Shown here: positions 21,075-30,179 of the stretch, piece after piece | Layout of the letters: each line of letters begins with the position of its first letter | How positions within the stretch are numbered: position 1 is the stretch's first letter | DNA from: a virus | DNA: 43,345 bases | Direction: 5' to 3' (one strand) | IMG/VR virus record: IMGVR_UViG_3300021962_000207 | Location: 1-43,345 of that record | The notes under the pieces: model-generated | What the model saw: the letters and a program-made list of their open reading frames with translations, nothing else | Databases searched by the model: none | What the model was told of the DNA's origin: nothing | Position numbers and translations under genes: made by a program

Positions 21075-21623
21075 TCACTCAAAAAATGATTTAAATTTTT
21101 TAACAACTCCTAATAATTGACTCAGAATACCTGATTGTTGTTCTTCCGTTCCAGTATTAGATGTATTTTGCATAAGTCCAGTCGAATCTATAGTCAATGC
21201 TCCAAAAGATATTCCATTAGACATCACAGTATTCATATTAGTTCCTTTAAAACTCTGTATTGGTGCTTGAATAGAGACTTGTTTATTTGAATTTATTGTT
21301 ATTTCTCCACTTCCATCAACAGCAACGATTCTAATGTTTCTTGCCTTTAAAATTATATCTCCACCCAGAGCTTCAATTACTATATTTCCACTTTTTGCTT
21401 TTATAACCTTTGCAGGTTCATTTTCAGCTGTTTCTTCACCACAAATTTCATAAGATGTTTTTTTACATGCATCAAGTTTATTTCCTTCTTCTGTGTACTG
21501 AAAACCTTGACCCATATCCGTGATCACGGAATAATCAATATATTTACCCGCAACATCTTTTACTCCGGATTTAATTACAAAACCGGGTTTCTTTTCATAA
21601 TACTCTTTTGGTTGGTCTGTCAT
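21075..21623 (-). CDS. Spike-like beta-helix protein (gp5 C-terminal-type)
   Basis: 182 residues. Residues ~70-125 have alternating hydrophobic strands (SGNIVIEALGGDIILKAR, then ITINSNKQVSIQAP) like the repeating octapeptides of the T4 gp5 C-terminal triple-stranded beta-helix. T4 carries this as the C-terminus of gp5; here it is a separate gene coupled to the gp5 OB-fold gene by an ATGA overlap. The C-terminal ~30 residues are an amphipathic helix ending in KKFKSFFE. It probably forms the membrane-piercing spike. Confidence 0.55.
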   Translation of the reverse strand: MTDQPKEYYEKKPGFVIKSGVKDVAGKYIDYSVITDMGQGFQYTEEGNKLDACKKTSYEICGEETAENEPAKVIKAKSGNIVIEALGGDIILKARNIRIVAVDGSGEITINSNKQVSIQAPIQSFKGTNMNTVMSNGISFGALTIDSTGLMQNTSNTGTEEQQSGILSQLLGVVKKFKSFFE

Positions 21624-23845
21624 ACACAGTCTACTACGTTTATGAATGTACTTATTCCGGCTGATAGAGCTGGATTATTCGTAATGTATCTTGGTACATA
21701 TTCGACGACCGGATAGAGTATAGCCCCCTGTCCTGTCTTAGTATTTATGGTGATAGTTGGATAGGTATTAAATTCTTGTTTGCATGACTTTGGAGATGTT
21801 ACTCCAATTATAGACCCATTAGAAGTTAAAATAGGTTCATATACACAACTTCCTGCTACAATTGTATCTCCAGATGTATACCCTATTCCAGGACCTTCGA
21901 CTACAATTGAAGTTATTATACCGACAGCAATGGTAGAAATTCCTACAGTTACACTTCCAATTCCGGTTGCAATTGTCCCAACTCCAGTGGCCGTTGTCCC
22001 AACTCCAGTGGTAGTTGTTCCAATTCCTGATAGATTTGTAGGGCAGTATCCTTCACCAGGTTCTACTAGATAAATTGATTCAATACTACCAGTATCAGTT
22101 ATTGTTGCTTTTGCAGACGCACCTTTACCATAGTTGGACTTATCAACAATAGTAACTGTTGGCGGTTGAGTGTATCCTTTTCCTGGATTTAAAACTTTAA
22201 TAGATATTAAAGATCCATTTGATGAAGATACTACCGGTATTGCTGATGCATCTATTCCATCACCATTGATAATAACTTCTGGTGGAATGCATGTATAATA
22301 TTGTATTCCTATTGGTAAAGATGGGCATTCATCTTGATTTGTTGGATTAATTGCAGTCTCTCTACACTCTTCAAAAGGTGTATCGCCAGATCCATACATT
22401 GATAAAAATCCTATTGCCTCATCAATGTCATCTCCCAATCCACCCAGAATGTCTATATTGTTTAAAGTATTCGACCAATTATCTGTAGATGGCAGTTTTA
22501 TTCCACCAAAAGGATCCCAGGTAGAAACACTCTTACAAGCCAAAGAGTCACAATCCAAGAAACTCAAAAGTTGTTGAAGAATATTTACTGCATTTGTTAT
22601 TTGTCCTGTTATAGAACTTATTCCTCCGGCTAACCAATCCAATCCCGAAAGAAGAGTAGCCAGAGCACCATCAATCATATCTGCCAACTTAGAAATCAAG
22701 GCAGCTACTGTTTCTTCTGCTGCACATCTAGGAATACTTGGTGTTTGTCCAATTAACCCGTCCAATAGATTTTCAATGAAATCCATTATTGGCCCAAATA
22801 ACTTTTCAAATAGACAGAAAATTATATTCAATATATTTTTAGCTGCTTCAGATATTGGAAGTTGAGCTACAGAAGGTAGAGTTATTCCTAACGCTTTAAA
22901 TAATTTTCCAACCAATCTAAAAATATTGTCTCTCATCGCATTGATGACTGCCTTCATTAAAGATGCAATTAATCTTGCAACTTTAGATATAGATTGTCGA
23001 ATATTTACTACTACATTTCTAATAGGATCTATAAAACCTAGAGCAGTTTGTTGAAGACCATTTACGAATTTTATAAAACTCTGTAAAGCTGCAGTAATGT
23101 CAGCAAGAATATTATTCCCACAACCATTTTCCCCAGTTACTTCATCAAATCTTGAGGCAAAGGCTAATTCGGCAGCGTCATCATAAAACAAAGTATCTTG
23201 TGGAACATATGGTTGTCCAAATATTGATCCAGAAAAAGCATCTGAATTTTTAGTACCCAAACTGAAGTTTGGTGGTGCGTCTAGACTTCCTGTAGAATCA
23301 GTACCAAATTGCGGATTACTGAAAATGCTTATTGCAGGGCCACTTTCTTTAGTAGTTTTTGGTACTTCCTTTAATTTTCCATCTTTTTGTCTTTTGACTC
23401 TTGTCGCACCTTTTGAGAGTTTTCCTTTTGAACCAGTAAATGGTTGAAAAGGATTTGGATTATCTACGTTTACTACCATTGGACTTCGGTAGAAACACGA
23501 CATCACTACTGGTTGTTGTGCTTCTTCTCCATCTAAGAAAAATCCAAAGACAGACTCTCCCCCAACTAACATTGGCAGTTTTCCAAATCCACCTTGGGCT
23601 GGAGCTCCATCAGCGGCACTAGTTAGAATATGTGCCCAAGGCAAATCTTCATCTTTAAGTTCATTTCTATCAAAACTATGATATCCAATAATCCTTACTT
23701 TACACCTATAACCCCAAGATTTTTCACCTTCATCTATTCTTGTTTTTTCATTACGCCAAACAGATGGATCGGCAACTTGACCGATCCACCATACGAATCC
23801 ATCTTTGCCAATAAAATTAGATTTCAGTAAGGATTCTTCTATCAT
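21620..23845 (-). CDS. 5: Baseplate hub gp5-like protein lacking lysozyme
   Basis: 741 residues. The N-terminal ~130 residues are the gp5 OB-fold: DGFVWWIGQVADPSVWR, CKVRIIGYHSFDRNE, LPWAHILTSA, GESVFGFFLDGEEAQQPVV. There is no lysozyme domain. Instead, a long helical and amphipathic region (~250-440) is followed by beta modules of GxGYTxPPTVTI type and a tandem GVGTTAT array (~595-635). T4 gp5 is 575 residues with internal lysozyme and a C-terminal beta-helix; here those functions appear to be in separate genes. It begins in a TAATG overlap with CP12. It forms the central hub below gp27. Confidence 0.8.
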   Translation of the reverse strand: MIEESLLKSNFIGKDGFVWWIGQVADPSVWRNEKTRIDEGEKSWGYRCKVRIIGYHSFDRNELKDEDLPWAHILTSAADGAPAQGGFGKLPMLVGGESVFGFFLDGEEAQQPVVMSCFYRSPMVVNVDNPNPFQPFTGSKGKLSKGATRVKRQKDGKLKEVPKTTKESGPAISIFSNPQFGTDSTGSLDAPPNFSLGTKNSDAFSGSIFGQPYVPQDTLFYDDAAELAFASRFDEVTGENGCGNNILADITAALQSFIKFVNGLQQTALGFIDPIRNVVVNIRQSISKVARLIASLMKAVINAMRDNIFRLVGKLFKALGITLPSVAQLPISEAAKNILNIIFCLFEKLFGPIMDFIENLLDGLIGQTPSIPRCAAEETVAALISKLADMIDGALATLLSGLDWLAGGISSITGQITNAVNILQQLLSFLDCDSLACKSVSTWDPFGGIKLPSTDNWSNTLNNIDILGGLGDDIDEAIGFLSMYGSGDTPFEECRETAINPTNQDECPSLPIGIQYYTCIPPEVIINGDGIDASAIPVVSSSNGSLISIKVLNPGKGYTQPPTVTIVDKSNYGKGASAKATITDTGSIESIYLVEPGEGYCPTNLSGIGTTTTGVGTTATGVGTIATGIGSVTVGISTIAVGIITSIVVEGPGIGYTSGDTIVAGSCVYEPILTSNGSIIGVTSPKSCKQEFNTYPTITINTKTGQGAILYPVVEYVPRYITNNPALSAGISTFINVVDCV
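21905..22030 (-). repeat. 21-bp tandem repeats in the gp5-like gene
   Basis: At least five 21-bp units encode G-(V/I)-G-T-x-A-T heptads. The central copies share the 19-mer GTTGTCCCAACTCCAGTGG on the plus strand. Slippage would change the length of the hub C-terminus in steps of seven residues. Confidence 0.7.
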
Positions 23846-25353: not shown

Positions 25354-27519
25354 CTACATTGCCGATAAGTTTGTTAATAACATTGTCTTGAATAAGCTAT
25401 TTAACAACACACCTTGAGGTGGTGGAGGCATAATCACAGTTCCCCCACCTCCACCACCAGAAGAAACTACCATTGGTCTTTGAGAACTTTCTCCAGAAGA
25501 CATTATCATAGGCATAATTAATACAGACGACTGGCCACCAACATTATAATCTGGATACATTTCGTACTGCATTGGGTAATTTAATTGTGCAGATGGAGTG
25601 GGGCCTGCCATTACATTTTGCATTGGTACAGTATTCGCCACGTTCATTTGTTGGGATTGTGATTGACCAAAAGAAGTTTTTGAAACTACACCACCAGATT
25701 GTGATTGTGATGAAGGGGTTGGCATTGCAACCATACCACTGGACTGTCCTTGCTGTTGAGGTTTTATGACATTTGCAGTTGCAGTTATATCTGAAGAATT
25801 AGGCCCAGATTTTTGAACTTGAACTCCCCCTCCAGGCATTCTATAAAACTTTCCTTTCACTCCACCATATTCCGCATAGTAATCAGCCGGAGTTCCTTCC
25901 CAAGAAAATTTTGCACCACTACTTGAGTTTGATAATATATTTCCATTAGCAAGAACTATTCCAATGTGAATTTGTGGTGGTGATCCCCTATCATAAGAAA
26001 TATAGATATCTCCAGCTTGTCTTTGATTTTCTGGAACTTGTTGCCAACCAGCTTTTATCATTGCTTTTTCGGCATCCGGTGCATATTCTGAAGTTCCCCA
26101 AGGAGGTCTTATTCCCGCAGCGGCAAATACTCTATTTACTGCCCAAACACAAGCTTCTCTACCTCCTCTAGGACCGGATCTACTGGAAAATCCTTTCATT
26201 TTTGCAGCAACGGTCGCAAGATTTGCGCCAGAACCACTAGGAGTTCCAGTAGGAGCTTTAGGCAATCCTCCTATAAATTGTAAAACAGCGGTTCCTCTAG
26301 CTCCAACTACTCTCTTACCAGGAACAGGTCCACCTCCAGCAATTCTTATAGCATTACTATCTCCTATAAATTCTGCGTCATTATATTTTCCTCTAATTCT
26401 AGAAGCCTCATTCGGTTCTAAGTGTAAAGGATCTTTTACCTCATATTTTGCAGATTCAATTGAAGCTCCTCCAGATTGAGCGCCTCTTACTGAAGCCTCA
26501 TAAGCATCTCTGTATGCGACTGGGTTTGGTGGCACAACTACAACATTATACCCTTTATTCTTTGCAGTCTTTACCATCAATTCGGTATTTTTTTCAACTA
26601 CTTGAGGGCTTCCATAATCATTAGTTCCATATGCTATGACTACAGTTTTACCTGACCCAGGTGATGCTCCACTTCCAGGATCTACTGGAGGTTCTGTACC
26701 TGGTGGAGCAACTTCCTCCGCTTGGGCTACCTGAACTGTTTGAGATCCAGAAGCATAATTTTCAAATCTAGCAACAACAGAATCAAATTTATTCAAAACT
26801 TCTGTCATTGATAAAGTAGACCCCGCAGCCGCTGCTTGCGCTTTTTGTTGTGCCTCTTGTTGTTTTAATTTTTCTTTCGCTTTTTCTTTAACAGAAGGTT
26901 CATTTCCAGAAAGTCCTCTTGCTGCTTCATATCCTCTATCCGCAAGATAACCTCCTAAGAAATTACCTGCCATACTTCCAACAACGAAACCTAAACCAGG
27001 AACGGGAATTAGTGCCTGTCCAATAGCACCTCCCAACATACTTCCTGCAAGAGCACCGCCTGCACCAGCTGCAGCCTTACCAGCGGATTCCCCTTCAGCA
27101 AGACCCGTAGCAAAATCCAATCCAGCAAAAATTGCATTTGCAATTCCCAATGCTTTCAGTCCACCTAATTTGACCATCGGGCCTTTTGTTGGAACTACTT
27201 TTGGTGGTTTTGCACTTTTAGATCCTCTTCCCCCGCCAAACATATTTCCAACTAAGCCTGCTGCATCAAGAGCACCACTCGCAACAGCAGATAATAAATT
27301 TCCAGGTCTGCCGAAAGTTGAAGCTACATTAATATTTGATATTTCTTTTAATTTTCTTTTTGATGGTAGTTTGATACCTTGAAGATTAGTAACTTCAACA
27401 TCCATAAATCTCAAAAATCCTTGAAAGGATGATTGAGTACCTCTCATTGTAGACGCACTTCGTCTAATTGGAACAATATTATTTAAGGCAGAAAAGAATG
27501 GTGATGAATTAATAGCCAT
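25354..27519 (-). CDS. Hub protein with permuted SGNH and CHAP/NlpC-like peptidase domains
   Basis: 721 residues. The N-terminus is followed by a hydrophobic Gly/Ala-rich region (~115-195) that may insert in a membrane or line the tube, then a Lys/Gln/Ala helix. Residues 291-420 hold SGNH blocks in permuted order: YGTND (block III, 297-301), DPLHLE (block V, 363-368), then IGDSN (block I, 385-389) and VVGARGTAVLQFI. Residues ~435-562 are a papain-like peptidase: C457 (GREACVWAVNRV), H518 (QIHIGIVLANG), with GDIYISYD between. The tail is Gln/Ser/Met-rich and disordered. It probably cuts peptidoglycan or modifies the envelope during DNA injection. Confidence 0.65.
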   Translation of the reverse strand: MAINSSPFFSALNNIVPIRRSASTMRGTQSSFQGFLRFMDVEVTNLQGIKLPSKRKLKEISNINVASTFGRPGNLLSAVASGALDAAGLVGNMFGGGRGSKSAKPPKVVPTKGPMVKLGGLKALGIANAIFAGLDFATGLAEGESAGKAAAGAGGALAGSMLGGAIGQALIPVPGLGFVVGSMAGNFLGGYLADRGYEAARGLSGNEPSVKEKAKEKLKQQEAQQKAQAAAAGSTLSMTEVLNKFDSVVARFENYASGSQTVQVAQAEEVAPPGTEPPVDPGSGASPGSGKTVVIAYGTNDYGSPQVVEKNTELMVKTAKNKGYNVVVVPPNPVAYRDAYEASVRGAQSGGASIESAKYEVKDPLHLEPNEASRIRGKYNDAEFIGDSNAIRIAGGGPVPGKRVVGARGTAVLQFIGGLPKAPTGTPSGSGANLATVAAKMKGFSSRSGPRGGREACVWAVNRVFAAAGIRPPWGTSEYAPDAEKAMIKAGWQQVPENQRQAGDIYISYDRGSPPQIHIGIVLANGNILSNSSSGAKFSWEGTPADYYAEYGGVKGKFYRMPGGGVQVQKSGPNSSDITATANVIKPQQQGQSSGMVAMPTPSSQSQSGGVVSKTSFGQSQSQQMNVANTVPMQNVMAGPTPSAQLNYPMQYEMYPDYNVGGQSSVLIMPMIMSSGESSQRPMVVSSGGGGGGTVIMPPPPQGVLLNSLFKTMLLTNLSAM

Positions 27520-27521
27520 TT

Positions 27522-29273
27522 TTAATCAACCAAGTTATAAACTACTTTTGAATATAATGTGAGAAAATTGTCATGATTTGTTGATGTGAGAAACGGAGTC
27601 GAAGCTCCACCCTTACTCAGAATAGGAGGTGCGGCTACTTGAGACCCAACTGGAGTTGATTGTGATTGCGGAGAACTCATGTTCATTGGAACCACATTAA
27701 CCTGTGGTTTTGATTGTGTTGCTGCTGGTTGAGAAACTGACCGTGCAAGTTGTTGTTGAGTTGTTGATTGTGTTGCCGCAGGAGTTACTACTGGAGGAGT
27801 TGTAGTAGTTGCAGCCCGTGTTGATGGTGATGCTCCTTGTGCTTTCAATCTTTCTGCATATACCTTTTGAAGTCCCTGTAATTTTTTAACTGGTTGTCCA
27901 TAATAACTTGCACCGGTAGCTGTTGGGAATGAAGCCCATTCTGGAGATAATGCAGCAGCTACTCTTGGACTTAACCCTTCTTTTTGTAGGAGTGATTCCA
28001 ATTCAGTTTCATCTTTAACTTTTATTCCAGCTTGATTTAGTCTTTTTATCGTCAATCTAACCGCACCCGCATCTTGTCTCTCTGGAGTCATTGCTCCACC
28101 ACCAACACTAGCCCAGGTTCCAGGCATGAATTGGTAACGACCAAATGCAGCACTAGCGTATCCCCCACTTCTGATAACTTTGTCGGGATGTTTACTTAAA
28201 TCTGCAGTTTGACTTCCTCCAAAATGTGTGTTATATCCTTGATTTGCGTATTTTGAAGTTCCTTCTGCGTATGCGATTGTATCCAATAATGATCTTGTAG
28301 CAGTACCAGCAGGCCCTTGTGCTCCAGGACCTGTTGCGGATGGACTAGGGGCTCCTGGACCTGATGGTGTAGGGGTTGGTTCTGGTTGGGTTACTTGTGA
28401 CTTTCCAGGTTTCGCTGGTGAAGTTCCTCCTCCTCTACTCGCTAAATTTTGAATAGCTTTATCAAATCTATCTAATATTGCATTGAATCTTTCTAACAGA
28501 GGTCCGGTCAACCCCTCCCCAGTCTCAGTTTGTACAGGAGCTACTTGACTACCATCACCAGCATCCAACATTCCACTTACAATTCTTGATCCCAACATTC
28601 CAGCACCACCAACAGCACCAGCCATGCCAATCATTTTTAACATTCCTGACCTACTGGGCATACTTCTTCTTAATGGTCCACCAGGAACTTTGACATCAAC
28701 ATCTATTCCGGAACCACCTGGAGATGCTTTTGGTAAATTTGATAGTTGTTCAACAATTCTTACGATTGTTTGTCTAATTGTTCTTGCAACTTGAAAGGTC
28801 TCACTAAAGACTTCTTGAAGAGCTTTTAAATTATCACCTAATTTTTTTACATTCCTACGATCTCCCAGAAATTGAATATATCCTATTGCTTGATTATATA
28901 ATTTTAAGAAGTTTTCAAGAATTTTATTAGGCATATCACTATCAATGCCTTGTAATTTTTGTTTGTATTCTTCTTGTTGACTCTGAAATTTATTTGTAAT
29001 GAATTGTTGAACGTTTTGATTTATACCTTGTACCTTACTTTCTACATTATTAAGGATATTTGTAGAAAGAGTTTTAATTATTGATCCGAGATCGGGGACT
29101 TTTGGTGCAACCGCTGCAGCACCACGTTGGAACCCTACAATTTTATTTGCAGCTGAAGAAACAATAGAAGTTCCTAGTGGAGAACCACCAGAAATAAAGT
29201 TCATTGCACCACCAATTGATGCAGGTCTTTCTGCAACTCCTACACTTGGATTAATTGCTGGTTTAATTGCCAC
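27522..29273 (-). CDS. Hub/tape-measure-like protein with GH104-like lysozyme domain
   Basis: 583 residues, GTG start. The N-terminal half is helical, with coiled-coil stretches and a Gly-rich hydrophobic patch (~212-236). A Pro/Gly linker (~285-325) leads to a muramidase domain (~327-475): LLDTIAYAEGT (E337 the catalytic candidate), AAFGRYQFMPGTW, ERQDAGAVRL. This resembles lambda-type lytic transglycosylases (GH104). The C-terminal Gln/Thr/Pro tail resembles that of the next gene. It supplies the cell-wall-cutting function that T4 places in gp5. The position 26-51-X suggests it replaces gp29 or gp28-type hub genes. Confidence 0.7.
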   Translation of the reverse strand: MAIKPAINPSVGVAERPASIGGAMNFISGGSPLGTSIVSSAANKIVGFQRGAAAVAPKVPDLGSIIKTLSTNILNNVESKVQGINQNVQQFITNKFQSQQEEYKQKLQGIDSDMPNKILENFLKLYNQAIGYIQFLGDRRNVKKLGDNLKALQEVFSETFQVARTIRQTIVRIVEQLSNLPKASPGGSGIDVDVKVPGGPLRRSMPSRSGMLKMIGMAGAVGGAGMLGSRIVSGMLDAGDGSQVAPVQTETGEGLTGPLLERFNAILDRFDKAIQNLASRGGGTSPAKPGKSQVTQPEPTPTPSGPGAPSPSATGPGAQGPAGTATRSLLDTIAYAEGTSKYANQGYNTHFGGSQTADLSKHPDKVIRSGGYASAAFGRYQFMPGTWASVGGGAMTPERQDAGAVRLTIKRLNQAGIKVKDETELESLLQKEGLSPRVAAALSPEWASFPTATGASYYGQPVKKLQGLQKVYAERLKAQGASPSTRAATTTTPPVVTPAATQSTTQQQLARSVSQPAATQSKPQVNVVPMNMSSPQSQSTPVGSQVAAPPILSKGGASTPFLTSTNHDNFLTLYSKVVYNLVD

Positions 29274-29448
29274 GATTTGCTGCCTGTTGTGCCTTTAAGT
29301 TTTCTTCTTCAATATGTTGTTTCAACAGAGTAAGATAGATATCTCTCTCCCAAGGCATTAAATTTTCAATCTCAGTCAAAGAATATTTATGGAACTGCAT
29401 GAGAGCAAAATTAATTCGAAAATATGACTCAAGATCAATATGAGCCAT
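29263..29448 (-). CDS. gp51-like baseplate hub assembly peptide
   Basis: 61 residues with HKYSLTEIENLMPWERDIYLTLLKQ, a motif of small phage tail or hub assembly chaperones. T4 gene order is 26-51, and this gene directly follows gp26, so a gp51-type hub assembly factor is likely, although it is much shorter than T4 gp51. It overlaps the next GTG start by 11 nt. Confidence 0.45.
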   Translation of the reverse strand: MAHIDLESYFRINFALMQFHKYSLTEIENLMPWERDIYLTLLKQHIEEENLKAQQAANRGN

Positions 29449-29450
29449 AA

Positions 29451-30179
29451 TTAACCGAAAAAACTTGTTAGTCCCTCCAGAGTCACTATATTTTCAACTT
29501 TTGTTTTGGGATTGATTACTTTAAATGTATGTGAAAGTTTTGGCATAGTTTCAAAGAATTGTTCAATTTTTTTGAACTGGTCGGCATTCATACTTTCAAT
29601 AAATTCAATCAATTCTTTTTTAGTGCAATCGGAAGCTGCCCACGCTTCTTCGGAAGTAAAAATAGTTTCAATACAAGATGAAATAATGTCAAATGACCTT
29701 TCAATAGTTGAAACAGATTCTTGAGTTGTAAAATCAAAATTATTTTTAATGAACTGATCTAAAGATGGATACCGCATCTTAATAACGATTTGATCGTCAA
29801 GTCTTATTTCTGGTGTATGTTCTGGATCTTTTTGGACTTGGACTTCATCCACATATACCTTTACTGGAACTTCAGTCTGATTATCATCGGAACATGTTAC
29901 AACTAGATCAATAGCTTCACCAACAGATTTTCCACGAACATTCAAGAAAATATACTCAATATCAAAAGAAGGTAAATCCTCTACTTTAATTCCCTTAGTT
30001 AAAATACAATCTTTTAGAACAGATTTAATTGCTAAAGTAATTTGTTTTGTATCTTGACTTTCTAGAGCCAAGATTAAAACTTTTTCTTCTTTAACTAAAA
30101 ATGGTCTGTATTTAATCGTTTTTCCTGTAGATGGCAACTCAAGTTCATAAGTTGGAGTCGCAATTTTTGGTAATGGCAT
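29451..30179 (-). CDS. 26: Baseplate hub subunit gp26
   Basis: 242 residues; T4 gp26 is 208. The N-terminus LPSTGKTIKYRPFLVKEEK followed by LILALESQDTKQI is the family signature. The middle is a beta-rich segment, and the C-terminus is helical with a final TLEGLTSFFG. In T4 it lies under the hub. A CTAAATA late element lies 26 nt upstream, starting the hub operon that runs to 18490. Confidence 0.85.
   Translation of the reverse strand: MPLPKIATPTYELELPSTGKTIKYRPFLVKEEKVLILALESQDTKQITLAIKSVLKDCILTKGIKVEDLPSFDIEYIFLNVRGKSVGEAIDLVVTCSDDNQTEVPVKVYVDEVQVQKDPEHTPEIRLDDQIVIKMRYPSLDQFIKNNFDFTTQESVSTIERSFDIISSCIETIFTSEEAWAASDCTKKELIEFIESMNADQFKKIEQFFETMPKLSHTFKVINPKTKVENIVTLEGLTSFFG

Follow-up and report, generated by a model that had tools for sequence, protein, structure and literature searches.

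Can an SGNH hydrolase whose blocks stand in the wrong order be a complete enzyme, and if so, what would it do on a phage tail? The question is raised by a 721-residue protein encoded in the window, the 43,345-nucleotide stretch of viral DNA analysed here, whose CP12, gp51-like, gp26-like and gp5-like genes (Table 1) mark it as that of a T4-like cyanophage with a host that is probably Synechococcus-like. Within this protein, KTVVIAYGTND (residues 291-301) is followed by DPLHLE (363-368), IGDSN (385-389) and VVGARGTAVLQFI (404-416), giving the block order III-V-I-II (N-H-S-G) and including N300, D301, D363, H366 and S388. An initial annotation had given these motif positions, residue numbers and the swapped order, and all proved exact when checked against the 721-residue sequence; the span it quoted (26220-26660) takes in the whole domain of about residues 289-427. 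The GDS, GTN and DxxH features of the superfamily are present and its collinear I-II-III-V order is absent. Each block occurs in a single copy: reading the 721-residue sequence yielded neither a second GDS-like block upstream of GTND nor a second GTND downstream of block II, and an ordinary SGNH domain accompanied by a stray motif was therefore rejected.

Table 1 Coordinates of the tail-lysin gene of the window, its domains and its neighbours, and of related tail proteins elsewhere
Feature	Position	Strand	Basis or remark
gp5-like hub gene	21620-23845		Related to Synechococcus phage counterparts
CP12 homologue, 70 aa	23845-24057		60% identical to ACG-2014e CP12
Tail-lysin protein, 721 aa, permuted SGNH and NlpC/P60-type domain	25354..27519	-	ORF
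NlpC/P60-type (Amidase_5/CHAP-like) domain, residues 445-531; candidate Cys457, His518	25927..26187	-	Pfam PF05382
Circularly permuted SGNH domain, residues about 289-427	26239..26655	-	Profile alignment, rotation scan, family conservation, model
Block II glycine Gly406 (VVGARG)	26302..26304	-	Not strictly conserved; low-confidence model loop
Block I GDS, residues 386-388; Ser388, predicted nucleophile	26356..26364	-	GDSNA invariant in 8/8, and model helix start
Block V DPLH, residues 363-366; Asp363 and His366, predicted triad members	26422..26433	-	His in 8/8, Asp in 7/8
Block III GTND, residues 298-301; Asn300, predicted oxyanion-hole residue	26617..26628	-	Asn in 8/8 permuted members
gp51-like protein	29263-29448		
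gp26-like baseplate hub protein	29451-30179		
S-SSM4, ACG-2014d tail proteins annotated endolysin	L061:3116-5545, L062:4119-6941		

A profile built from 13 phage relatives with canonical block order scored the window domain at 4.7 bits in its native order and at 14.2 bits once the sequence was rotated to start between blocks V and I. The maximum of the rotation scan fell on the predicted junction, and the best of 296 shuffled control sequences, scored over the rotations tried, reached 6.7 bits. When a profile of eight permuted sequences was aligned with the canonical one, its columns 3-94 matched columns 46-138 (E = 3.2e-6) while its columns 97-131 matched columns 5-39 (E = 5.7e-5), and rotating the canonical columns fused these crossed pieces into a continuous profile-profile match that spans 121 columns (probability 96%, E = 2e-9). 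An alignment that is first crossed and then fused is the signature of a circular permutation, which argues that the permutation is real. When PDB sequences were searched, SGNH/GDSL-type chains numbered nine with the rotated permuted profile, against a single GDSL-type chain (yxiM, E = 0.22) with the native one; the individual E-values are weak, and it is the composition of the list that shifts. The Pfam model Lipase_GDSL_2 (PF13472) gave 17.3 bits for the window domain, 22.4 bits after rotation and 31.0 bits for its relative L048, all below the cut-off of 32.9, and touched five of the eight permuted members (best E = 1.5e-7). At the level of sequence, these comparisons establish both the circular permutation and the homology to SGNH hydrolases. 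The initial proposal of a permuted SGNH domain is strongly supported by the crossed profiles, the permuted homologues, the retention of Ser388, His366 and Asn300 and a confident structural model.

The same permutation, which the initial annotation had suggested seeking in other phages, is present in diverse metagenomic phages. Scans of viral sequences recovered the permuted domain in L043/L046, L044/L045, L047, L048/L050, L049 and L051 (37-48% identity), with matches that cover the permuted length in full or for the most part, together with a close relative at 92% identity (L001) and a truncated one (L002); scans of genome contigs returned zero relatives. All eight permuted sequences retain Ser, His and Asn, as well as GDSNA and GTN, and the catalytic Asp is kept in seven, the exception being L047, which reads KYVH. 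At the lowest identity to the window found within its clade (34%), GDSNA, GTN and His are still invariant. The D that follows GTN varies among the permuted members, L043 and L044 reading GTNT, and D301 does not hold up as the conserved site residue that it had been taken for. Nei-Gojobori dN/dS is approximately 0.13 between the window and L001 and approximately 0.10 between L043 and L044. From the conservation of these residues, the domain would be expected to have Ser-His-Asp esterase activity. In a tree with all domains set to one order, a branch supported in 100/100 splits the permuted from the canonical forms, a topology that, with small sampling and several long branches, is compatible with one permutation event.

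The surroundings of the domain point to a role in the virion. It had been described as lying inside a hub protein; the 721-residue protein is not the gp5-like hub itself but a lysin-bearing protein encoded beside the genes of the baseplate hub. The papain-like CHAP/NlpC peptidase noted downstream was recovered by the Pfam Amidase_5 model (22.1 bits, cut-off 21, E = 1.5e-4), and the CHAP/NlpC region is 55-56% identical to Synechococcus phage tail proteins annotated as endolysins. The S-SCSM2R homologue has the same flanking scaffold and the NlpC/P60-type domain without SGNH, so that the SGNH domain appears as a cassette with clean borders between low-complexity linkers. At the same place, other close homologues carry an ordinary M23 peptidase (L008, L009-L012) or an M23 peptidase together with permuted SGNH (L043-L046), and the lysin partner on the same chain is of the NlpC/P60 type in the window and L001. 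The permuted domain lies beside transglycosylase/endolysin-family regions in L047 and L049, within an OB-fold gp5-like protein in L048 (Phage_base_V, E = 7.9e-8) and also in a large virion-like protein on a smaller contig. Nearly all permuted members share their chain with a cell-wall-lysin region, and the partners of the canonical relatives are M15, phage lysozyme and M23.

Further observations concern the tail genes of these contigs. In L048/L050, of which L050 belongs to a 226-kb contig, the permuted SGNH domain resides in a 363-residue OB-fold gp5-like protein, which is an unusual location for an esterase. The lysozyme/transglycosylase-like neighbour at 27522-29273 of the window and its counterpart at L001:2333-4096 keep their N- and C-terminal parts and differ in the central enzyme region, as if cassettes had been exchanged. 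A conserved tail (...LNSLFKTMLLTNLS..), encoded at 25354-25500 in the window and found at the C-termini of L001, L008, L009, L044 and L046, follows very different lysin cassettes and is possibly a virion attachment signal. The homologue at L007:4983-6644, 77% identical in its N-terminal part, has M23-like motifs that are apparently swapped, with GSTGRSTGPHFHIG before GGIDIAAPYGT and GFVAH, and S-CAM3 gp009 (L021) resembles it in motif arrangement; for L007, rotation gained nothing (16.1 native versus 16.5), and we do not claim that its M23 peptidase is permuted.

We propose that the window domain is a complete SGNH hydrolase in which the chain of the usual fold has been opened between blocks II and III. 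At the junction IRGKYNDAEFIGDS, the old C-terminal helix would continue straight into the old first strand, and the resulting order would be strand3-III, strand4, V, strand1-I, strand2-II. Ser388 would be activated by His366 and Asp363, with an oxyanion hole formed by Asn300, the Ser388 amide and probably Gly406. Within a tail lysin, flanked by the N-terminal scaffold on one side and the NlpC/P60-type domain on the other, the domain would constitute an exchangeable, virion-borne cassette. Its most likely task would be to strip O-acetyl groups, probably those of peptidoglycan, as the adjacent enzyme cleaves the wall at genome entry. Presence in the virion and the nature of the substrate are suggested by gene context and domain partnership. 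That the domain works as a peptidoglycan O-acetylesterase, acting before the NlpC/P60-type domain does, is a guess, proposed mainly because of the lysin-domain partnership; no report of O-acetylated peptidoglycan in Synechococcus was found in the open literature. Taken as a whole, we regard a permuted SGNH domain that serves as a virion O-acetylesterase cassette of a tail lysin as the likely reading of this locus.

The same permuted enzyme might instead act on another substrate, namely acyl groups on the outside of the cell, borne by O-antigen, capsule or lipid. SGNH esterases are common in phage tail fibres and spikes, and several phage tail-fibre papers mention SGNH. However, the gene sits among baseplate hub genes, and lysin domains occupy the same chain in most members, permuted and canonical alike, which makes an outer-surface substrate unlikely, though worth keeping in view.

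Whether the domain is catalytic at all is brought into question by a sister branch. A homologous permuted domain occurs in the isolated phages S-SSM4/S-SSM6b and in 48 ACG-2014d records (HMM E = 4.2e-18 for S-SSM4). In S-SSM4 and one ACG-2014d copy, read by alignment, none of Asn, His and Ser is retained; the replaced motifs in the S-SSM4 and ACG-2014d copies read GTDQ/GSKD and GDK/GDQ, with DxxH absent, and these domain copies are probably inactive. Compared with phrog_1200, the SGNH region of the L061/L062 proteins resembles an insertion. The initial annotation had made its case depend on conservation of Ser388 and His366 among homologues: the two residues are lost in the sister branch (S-SSM4, ACG-2014d) and kept in the clade of the window. 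Sister copies that lack a catalytic site indicate that the fold can persist without catalysis, and the window domain might likewise be an SGNH-fold module for binding or spacing, in line with the retention of the fold region in S-SSM4 and ACG-2014d after the loss of Ser, His and Asn. Against this, GDSNA, GTN and His are invariant in the window's clade, which is under purifying selection, and a non-catalytic role there appears improbable.

A structure model offers a separate view of the permuted domain. AlphaFold2 was given an alignment of permuted sequences only, the canonical half-domain fragments being left out as misaligned rows, and returned a mean pLDDT of 84.6 and a pTM of 0.84; an alignment of three near-identical rows gave a pLDDT of 38. 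The elements of the model (E7-11, H20-36, E40-43, H52-65, H84-93, E98-101, H103-109 and H124-133, in model numbering) follow the order strand3-helix3-strand4-helix4-[V]-helix5-strand1-helix1-[II]-helix2, which, as modelled, is that expected for an SGNH fold whose chain is opened between blocks II and III. In SGNH enzymes the nucleophile opens the helix after its strand, and in the model residue 103 (Ser388) starts the helix after strand 98-101. Asn300 comes after strand 7-11, Asp363 and His366 stand before helix 84-93, and the block II loop has a pLDDT near 50. The predicted triad would converge in one pocket. In the viral structure library BFVD, the best match is the ACG-2014d homologue (E = 2.2e-7, TM 0.67). 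The lists that Foldseek and VIA-align returned for the model have no SGNH enzyme near the top and hold generic Rossmann-like folds instead; both methods align in chain order and would not be expected to cope with a permuted chain.

The model also bears on two further alternatives. Tail hub proteins of T4-like baseplates are often oligomeric, a habit that would suit an active site completed between protomers by domain swapping, but the single-chain model is a confident one with a single compact domain and the connection from block V to block I is short and well conserved, so that such an arrangement is very improbable. That there is no permutation, and that the motifs resemble those of SGNH enzymes by chance in an unrelated Rossmann-like domain, is hardly credible: structure searches do list HAD and Rossmann folds (Z up to 7.7), but the alignment fuses after rotation at E = 2e-9, the shuffle control stays under the rotated score and every catalytic motif is conserved across a family.

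The permuted SGNH domain described here has unpermuted relatives in phage tail proteins, including those of the IMG/VR contig L015/L022 (with a CHAP-like domain 62% identical to that of the window), Synechococcus phage S-H38 gp166 (L019), L029 and a Helicobacter pametensis prophage (L020). They have in common with the window the Ser, Asn and His of blocks I, III and V, alternating alpha/beta elements and the role of a tail-lysin module, whereas their order is I-II-III-V and that of the window domain III-V-I-II. The CHAP/NlpC lysins of S-SCSM2R, ACG-2014e and S-CAM7 have an NlpC/P60-type domain 48-56% identical to that of the window, without an SGNH cassette at this place; the scaffold of S-SCSM2R is common to the window. 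The open-access literature searched yielded no description of a phage SGNH domain with permuted blocks. Our observations suggest that some phage tail lysins carry an esterase that escapes profile libraries owing to its swapped block order. Since this small natural permutant has unpermuted counterparts in like proteins, it also allows a direct test of how the cut influences folding, activity and virion placement.

Natural permutation of enzymes is uncommon, and permuted SGNH proteins as such are already known. AlgJ/AlgX and BcPatB1 are SGNH-like O-acetyltransferases with permuted block order, additional strands or caps, and motifs that include GTSYS and DxH (PMC4148444, PMC9487903); in AlgJ/AlgX the order is H-S-G-N and Tyr replaces the block III Asn (PMC9487903, PMC4148444). 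The window domain is, like these, a permuted SGNH core, but its N-H-S-G order corresponds to a different cut, the reported cases (AlgJ/AlgX, PatB1) being cut elsewhere. On balance, we lean towards a single ancient SGNH permutation, with a cut unlike that of AlgX/PatB1, having produced a compact cassette that moved among unrelated tail proteins, in some of which it would have lost catalysis and yet been kept. Unlike AlgJ/AlgX/PatB1, the window domain has ordinary GDS, GTN and DxxH motifs and no cap, within about 135 residues.
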